This document shows positions 47,690 through 47,774 of a stretch of 64,000 nucleotides of DNA, piece by piece. The position numbers and the translations under genes are program-made. The stretch lies in the NCBI RefSeq assembly GCF_002028425.1, contig NZ_CP020043.1, positions 124,001 to 188,000 on the forward strand, in the 5' to 3' direction. The DNA is from Streptomyces katrae (GTDB taxonomy: Bacteria; Actinomycetota; Actinomycetes; Streptomycetales; Streptomycetaceae). Under the pieces are notes generated by a model. That model worked only from the letters and a program-made list of their open reading frames with translations. It did no database searches and had not been told where the DNA came from. Position 1 is the first letter of the stretch; each line of letters begins with the position of its first letter.

Positions 47690-47774
47690 GGAGAGGTACC
47701 CAAAGCGGCCGAATGGGGTCCGGCTCTTCGCCGGACGGGCTCTGCCCACGCAGGTTCGAATCCTGCCCTCTCCG
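47690..47774 (+). tRNA. Class II tRNA, Ser-like body with CUU anticodon (atypical)
   Basis: A full cloverleaf can be folded by hand. Acceptor GGAGAGG pairs with CCTCTCC. The D-arm is CCCA/TGGG with loop AAGCGGCCGAA. The anticodon stem TCCGG/CCGGA closes loop CTCTTCG. A long variable arm GGGC-TCT-GCCC follows, then T-arm GCAGG/CCTGC with loop TTCGAAT, and discriminator G. The long variable arm, G73 and the GCGGCCGAATGGG D-region are as in Streptomyces tRNA-Ser. The anticodon read from the loop is CUU, which would decode Lys AAG, and position 37 is C instead of a purine. CCA is not encoded. Seryl-tRNA synthetase recognises the variable arm, not the anticodon, so charging with Ser is plausible. 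A biosynthetic seryl-tRNA synthetase (56259) and an aminoacyl-tRNA transferase-like gene (50154) are nearby. Confidence 0.75.

Follow-up and report, generated by a model that had tools for sequence, protein, structure and literature searches.

A serine-type tRNA family with a lost decoding loop in Streptomyces: predicted seryl carriers for VlmA in azoxy biosynthesis

The azoxy-type biosynthetic cluster examined here, from Streptomyces katrae, contains a gene for a serine-type tRNA whose decoding loop has been lost and which, judged from sequence comparison, is very likely a pathway-dedicated seryl carrier for the transferase VlmA. The cluster lies in a stretch of 64,000 nucleotides, analysed as a whole and referred to as the window. 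The gene belongs to a family in which the tRNA body is conserved and the anticodon loop, as far as the compared sequences tell, is drifting freely. Beyond the single cluster, it seems likely that the Streptomycetaceae possess a class of purely metabolic serine tRNAs that have lost their anticodon and would act as reusable carriers for antibiotic making, with up to 13 genes per genome, cluster-borne and dispersed copies in one SARP regulon, and a seryl-tRNA closed to the ribosome as the solution to the problem of diversion. The features of the window are collected in Table 1.

Table 1. Features of the azoxy cluster and its tRNA gene in the window.
Feature	Position	Strand	Basis or remark
SARP-type regulator gene, BTAD domain	30099..31313	+	link to operator predicted
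PLP-dependent decarboxylase	45099..46496	-	
SARP-type operator: three TCAG repeats with 11-bp period, 36 bp before the tRNA	47628..47653	+	exact match; kept in six orthologues; binding predicted
Serine-type tRNA gene without decoding anticodon loop, predicted seryl carrier	47690..47774	+	ARAGORN, Rfam, fold, relatives
Conserved 15-bp hairpin, then TTTG; terminator-like	47789..47830	+	six orthologues; z -3.95
Iron-containing redox enzyme (Haem_oxygenas_2), next gene downstream of the tRNA	48103..49194	+	
VlmA-like seryl-tRNA transferase candidate	50154..51200	-	PF09924, 205 bits
Second exact operator copy, VlmA/VlmH divergent promoter	51256..51281	+	sequence match
Third exact operator copy, VlmA/VlmH divergent promoter	51295..51320	+	sequence match
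VlmH-like acyl-CoA dehydrogenase-type N-hydroxylase candidate	51328..52563	+	name from similarity to the vlm set
Hydrophobic protein at the VlmO place	52647..53183	+	no Pfam match; named by place
Flavin reductase, VlmR place	53180..53770	+	orthologue annotated as flavin reductase
VlmB-like ferritin-type protein	53767..54753	+	orthologue annotated as VlmB-like
APC-family amino-acid permease	54759..56240	+	orthologue annotation
Seryl-tRNA synthetase paralogue, VlmL type	56259..57536	+	TIGR00414, 422.8 bits

The gene is embedded in a VlmA-type azoxy cluster with VlmA, VlmH and the partners VlmB, VlmO and VlmR, the last two being named from their place and the annotation of their orthologues. A seryl-tRNA synthetase (SerRS) paralogue and a DUF2156 seryl-transferase candidate had been proposed for this cluster from the letters alone, and the profile matches listed in Table 1 confirmed both. 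The valanimycin pathway resembles the window cluster in its VlmA-, VlmH-, VlmB- and VlmR-like genes, its SerRS paralogue and the SARP-type operators with three repeats that lie between vlmA and vlmH. As described, it uses Ser-tRNA-Ser, with which VlmA has been characterised (PMC12945691), and the available parts of its description name no cluster tRNA, whereas the window cluster has its own. Beside the azoxy genes, the window contains at 32103-43487 genes of sulfate uptake and assimilation (a binding protein, an ABC transporter, an EF-Tu-like GTPase of the CysN kind, two proteins of the PAPS-reductase type and a sulfite reductase), as does S. lavendulae pSA3239, and this neighbourhood may point to a sulfur-containing product.

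ARAGORN found a single tRNA in the window and called it "tRNA-Lys (ctt)". The Rfam model RF00005 matched it with 41.5 bits against a gathering score of 29, both in the stretch 47400-48000 and in the whole genome; a fast Rfam search of the whole window gave no matches and thus missed the gene. The predicted fold is a class II cloverleaf of -45.5 kcal/mol (z -3.67), equalled by one of 200 shuffled sequences. The long variable arm, the G73 and the serine-type acceptor are all present, so that the complete class II cloverleaf claimed in the sequence-only reading was borne out. G73 lies at 47774 and is directly followed by CAG; CCA is therefore not encoded by the gene. The same reading had assigned an anticodon CUU with C37, which does not hold, because it depended on a 7-nt loop being imposed: folding predicts a C32-G38 pair, which leaves a 7-bp anticodon stem and a 5-nt loop UCUUC, and the relatives differ in triplet and loop length. 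With no functional CUU anticodon, the associated worry over serine at lysine AAG codons falls away. The features of a decoding tRNA-Ser, i.e. a 7-nt loop with U33 and a purine at position 37 and a serine anticodon, are missing. The hairpin behind the gene was not flagged in the terminator scan, and scanning for sigma-70 consensus promoters and T-rich terminators detected nothing.

The behaviour of the anticodon loop was followed across the family. A BLAST search with the 85-nt gene of the window gave matches in 51 of 392 Streptomyces genomes, with the 3' half of the gene as the most constant part. Among the first 30 loci, the window's own included, the triplets CTT, TCT, GGG, CCA, TTT, TCA, TCG, CCG, GGT, ACC, GGC and GTG occurred, and ARAGORN read some of the loops as two- or four-base anticodons. 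Predicted hairpin-loop size was rejected as a decoding test, because canonical controls folded by minimum energy likewise give loops of 3-7 nt, which makes it unfair and not discriminating. A strict geometry test was used instead, still loose in its demands (at least four of five stem pairs, a 7-nt loop, U33 and a purine at position 37, at any of six offsets). It was passed by 4 of 110 distinct family members as opposed to all 34 distinct canonical relatives, which share the acceptor and T arm and come from other bacteria. Six clusters that are orthologous to one another (the window, NBC_00158, S. lavendulae pSA3239, NBC_00726, G038 and G169) have a near-invariant tRNA body and a loop that differs in sequence and length, the stretch from GTCCG to its complement comprising 9, 10, 9, 11, 9 and 13 nt with differing sequences. 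VlmA of G038 shares 93% identity with the protein of the window, and that of G169 shares 81%.

Serine identity was examined with a search pattern consisting of the 5' acceptor, the T arm and the 3' acceptor, with the middle left free, which matched at least 119 stretches when applied to a collection of named species. Among the matches listed, 76 genes in 75 loci lie outside the Streptomycetaceae (Prevotella, Planctomycetes, Nostoc and others), and all 76 are tRNA-Ser with serine anticodons. This acceptor and T arm therefore mark serine tRNAs elsewhere, which serves as an internal control. The matches listed from Streptomyces, Kitasatospora and Embleya, genera of the Streptomycetaceae, comprise 53 genes in 44 loci, and ARAGORN reports scattered anticodons for them or none.

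For covariation analysis, 40 members were chosen by hand to span the family, and the figures apply to this selection. Across it, 96.2% of the cells are paired and 11 of 26 pairs have changed on both sides, including all six pairs of the anticodon stem. Double-changed cells number 60 compared to 15.1 in shuffles, and none of 500 shuffles reached as high a value. The 7-bp acceptor stem and the 5-bp T stem are paired in all 40 members, although the pattern fixes the acceptor and T arm, so that their conservation is partly built in. One member found by BLAST alone (L046) also has a compensatory change in the T stem. G18 and G19 are invariant in 40 of 40, as is an A-U pair at the T-stem position A51-U63, which in the S. 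aureus tRNA-Gly type goes with weak EF-Tu binding and which here is fixed by the search pattern and present in the canonical relatives as well. Since the stem pairs covary and the loop varies, selection acts on the RNA fold and not on the loop.

With regard to a phage origin, a search of 50,697 phage records gave no match. Plasmid records contained 10 Streptomyces matches, five of them with at least 88% identity over the whole gene, and NBC_00158, S. lavendulae pSA3239 and NBC_00726 are further orthologues among these five. The 85-kb circular plasmid pSCO1 of S. collinus Tu 365 contains a family tRNA of the dispersed type (75% match; L321, 8001-8095), with no azoxy gene in the stretch concerned.

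Among the Streptomyces genomes compared, the tRNA was found only in those with VlmA. The pattern is present in 50 of 392 Streptomyces genomes and the reversed pattern gave no matches in the genomes listed. With 342 of 392 genomes lacking the gene, the possibility raised beforehand, that every Streptomyces has it with or without the cluster, does not apply. A VlmA profile built from 15 homologues matched in 82 of the 392 genomes at E 1e-50. Crossing both results gave 50 genomes with tRNA and VlmA, none with the tRNA only, 32 with VlmA only and 310 with neither (Fisher 1e-41, a value that is too small because the genomes are related). VlmA scored at least 500 bits in 52 genomes, 48 of which have the pattern and one (G102) a BLAST match. 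In the other three (G073, G086 and G337) no such tRNA was found by pattern or BLAST in the genome, nor by ARAGORN within 20 kb. The remaining 28 VlmA-only genomes have scores of 356-495 bits. When 58 VlmA proteins were placed in a tree, two changes of the tRNA label were counted, as opposed to a shuffled mean of 13.5; rows were labelled per genome, except for the second VlmA of G303, which was labelled as without.

Syntenic tRNA genes in other azoxy clusters, which had been suggested as a check, were found: the tRNA lies 96-217 bp from VlmA in 19 of the 27 loci having both, and elsewhere it directly precedes VlmJ (DAGK_cat/YegS_C), with VlmK (MmgE_PrpD) nearby. VlmJ and VlmK are reported to work on the part of valanimycin that derives from serine (PMC4052509). 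A looser search of 40 stretches near VlmA gave one further, divergent copy. Twelve VlmA loci of another kind (L267, L269-L278 and L284) contain no family tRNA, VlmJ, VlmK or SerRS in the 20 kb examined. By analogy with azodyrecin, for which a VlmA homologue has been proposed to use alanyl-tRNA and whose cluster is described without a synthetase gene (PMC9379638), these loci may be alanine users. In the class outside the 392 genomes, VlmA was found in 9 of 394; within 1.5 kb on each side of these nine loci ARAGORN found no tRNA, and a less stringent pattern gave two copies, both in L308. In G168 and G300 (L091 and L095), a strongly divergent VlmA (36-37% identical, with the profile match split in two) adjoins a family tRNA whose loop is of a type of its own, which may indicate a different acceptor or chemistry. 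Two or three tandem family tRNAs, about 96-150 bp apart, occur in L101, L109, L110, L111, L117, L158 and L183 and adjoin VlmA, except in L158, where the 8 kb examined contain no VlmA.

A common promoter element connects the tRNA genes with the cluster. The operator in front of the window tRNA reads TCAG-N7-TCAG-N7-TCAG, in agreement with the direct repeats at an 11-bp period that are given as the rule for SARP promoters (PMC10936776, PMC10972967). The valanimycin SARP, VlmI, is likewise reported to have three-heptad sites before vlmJ and vlmA-vlmH (PMC10972967). With up to two mismatches, 12 operator matches were obtained compared to 2.8 expected. With at most one mismatch allowed, 89 of 106 non-tandem family genes have the operator no more than 170 bp upstream, and none of 69 control tRNAs does; for this count, genes with less than 170 bp upstream were dropped, identical ones were counted once and 20 tandem second copies were set apart. 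Dispersed genes were assigned by hand as those with no VlmA, VlmJ or VlmK in the 8-20 kb examined, and 29 of these 40 have the operator with at most one mismatch. It is missing at this stringency from 11 of the 40 dispersed and 17 of the 106 non-tandem genes. The genome of the window has a second, dispersed member on the same contig (G000:C2:33868-33958; L071, 9969-10059), whose two well-kept TCAG repeats upstream amount to three mismatches to the full operator, so that it fails the one-mismatch test.

The dispersed copies adjoin unrelated genes and their flanks are otherwise unalike. G327, G364 and G003 have 13, 12 and 9 family genes, and their dispersed copies have in common a promoter module (the repeats followed by a CTGCCA...GTGAACGG stretch) and no other flank. 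In G033, G302, G117 and G146, the VlmA and SerRS cluster has no tRNA in the 12-20 kb examined, and 8, 5, 4 and 4 copies are found elsewhere in the genome. The simplest reading of this arrangement is a diffusible RNA supplied in trans. From the operator matches we infer that the operator-bearing copies, clustered as well as dispersed, would be switched on by the cluster SARP.

Taken as a mechanism, the cluster SARP would turn on the tRNA, VlmA and VlmH together, and SerRS, reading the variable arm and the acceptor end, would charge the carrier with serine whatever its loop. With the decoding loop gone, the seryl-tRNA would be neither consumed by translation nor a source of misincorporated serine, and the seryl group would be reserved for the pathway. 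VlmA would then move serine from the carrier to the hydroxylamine that VlmH and VlmR produce, after which the freed tRNA would be recharged, and clusters without a local tRNA would be supplied in trans by the dispersed copies.

SerRS recognises the variable arm of its tRNA and not the anticodon. The latter is also stated in a review (PMC7609411). The SerRS paralogue of the window is 41% identical to the housekeeping SerRS. Considered as a constant partner of the tRNA, the paralogue was rejected, as the 50 tRNA genomes divide into 29 with a VlmL-type SerRS, 18 with a single SerRS and three with extra copies of the housekeeping type. In at least these 18 genomes the housekeeping SerRS would have to charge the tRNA, and VlmA is thus accompanied more constantly by the tRNA than by the second synthetase. 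In G372, a SerRS gene (L090, 455-1735) lies 172 bp from a family tRNA and seems to be a copy of the housekeeping SerRS, not one of the VlmL type, as if it had been recruited separately.

The sequence-only reading had already proposed that the tRNA is a seryl carrier reserved for the pathway and barred from the ribosome by its anticodon loop, and the conserved body, the variable loop and the presence of VlmA in 50 of 50 tRNA genomes favour this proposal. Several observations count against it: because VlmA works with Ser-tRNA-Ser, a special tRNA may not be chemically needed; the three genomes named above have VlmA of more than 500 bits and no family tRNA that was found; four members do pass the loop test; the dispersed copies stand beside unrelated genes; and some of the dispersed and of the non-tandem genes, the second copy in the window's genome among them, have no near-exact operator. 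A decoding tRNA that places serine at AAG or other codons, as a regulated mistranslation device of the cluster, would agree with the ARAGORN call and with allo-tRNAs, which combine serine identity with foreign anticodons and are reported to function in translation (PMC7609411). Decoding of AAG was nevertheless rejected because the orthologous clusters have other loops of other lengths, and with differing triplets among these clusters and 106 of 110 distinct members failing the loose loop test, such a device is highly improbable. The number of dispersed copies, their unrelated neighbours and the divergent extra copy near VlmA might also be expected of decaying tRNA-Ser pseudogenes or functionless tRNA-derived repeats spread by mobile elements. 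We consider this quite improbable in view of the acceptor, D and T helices, which are 100% paired in the 40 members with compensatory changes in all helices, of the operator kept at most dispersed genes despite their unalike flanks, and of the constant company of VlmA.

Control by a SARP-type operator would equally suit an RNA of the pathway that carries no amino acid, e.g. one that serves in regulation or as a decoy by sensing seryl-tRNA or by binding to SerRS or VlmA, and the charging of the carrier is itself a prediction. An RNA of this kind is unlikely, since the retained parts, namely the acceptor stem, G73, the variable arm and the T arm, are those that charging would need, and the cluster contains an aminoacyl-tRNA-using enzyme. 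The 3' ends of tRNA genes are common integration sites, and the constant 3' half of the family might accordingly be an attachment site for integrating elements, linked to VlmA by hitch-hiking. The gene's own operator, the hairpin kept behind it in six orthologues, the many places per genome and the fixed position by VlmA or VlmJ make this an extremely improbable explanation of the conservation.

Compared to known systems, the predicted seryl carriers differ in a defining feature from tRNA-Ser, allo-tRNAs, tRNA-Sec and the tRNA-Gly type of S. aureus. Like tmRNA, which is a chargeable tRNA-like RNA without an anticodon, they would be charged without decoding; tmRNA has an mRNA part and enters the ribosome, whereas the family consists of free-standing RNAs of 83-99 nt. 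Allo-tRNAs share serine identity with many anticodon triplets (PMC7609411). Their acceptor domains are described as 8/4 or 9/3 and the tested ones translate, while the family is 7/5 in 40 of 40 members, varies in loop length and is tied to one pathway. The tRNA-Sec is a class II tRNA charged with serine by SerRS that reads no serine codons (PMC7609411), as predicted for the family, and differs by its 8-bp acceptor stem and UCA anticodon: the family has a 7-bp acceptor stem and varied triplets (tca in 1 of the 53 listed genes), and no selenocysteine context was seen nearby. By analogy, the family most likely resembles in its working the non-proteinogenic tRNA-Gly of Staphylococcus aureus, which is reserved for aminoacyl transfer outside the ribosome (PMC4052509, PMC9976931). 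The escape of that tRNA from translation is ascribed to weak EF-Tu binding and a replaced GG18-19, whereas the family keeps G18 and G19 and loses the anticodon loop. Loss of the decoding loop, membership in a biosynthetic regulon and dispersed multicopy supply set the family apart from these systems.

No description of the family, or of a tRNA gene in a biosynthetic cluster, was found in titles and abstracts of the open-access literature, and an account in a subscription journal is possible. How Ser-tRNA leaves translation for valanimycin is called still unknown in a 2014 review (PMC4052509), and in a 2023 review the identity elements of the pathway enzymes consuming aminoacyl-tRNA are likewise given as unknown (PMC9976931). 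If the carrier reading is true, it answers how pathways consuming aminoacyl-tRNA spare the ribosome, namely by an adaptor of their own outside the genetic code. The genes would also be a flag for azoxy clusters in genome mining and a natural source of SerRS substrates kept from translation. As a warning, annotation programs label the family genes as Lys, Arg, Val, Ala, Cys etc. from a loop that does not decode. At one locus (L318), a tag is absent between OG553_RS00775 and RS00765 in the table, which has no RNA genes, and the public annotation probably lists the tRNA there under another amino acid. Finally, four low-scoring tRNA-like sequences in the window's own genome (G000:C1:2129689, 2130365, 6893445 and 345142; L073, L074, L077) have a T arm in common with small changes, poorly fitting anticodon arms and differing triplets, and are perhaps another odd tRNA-like group.
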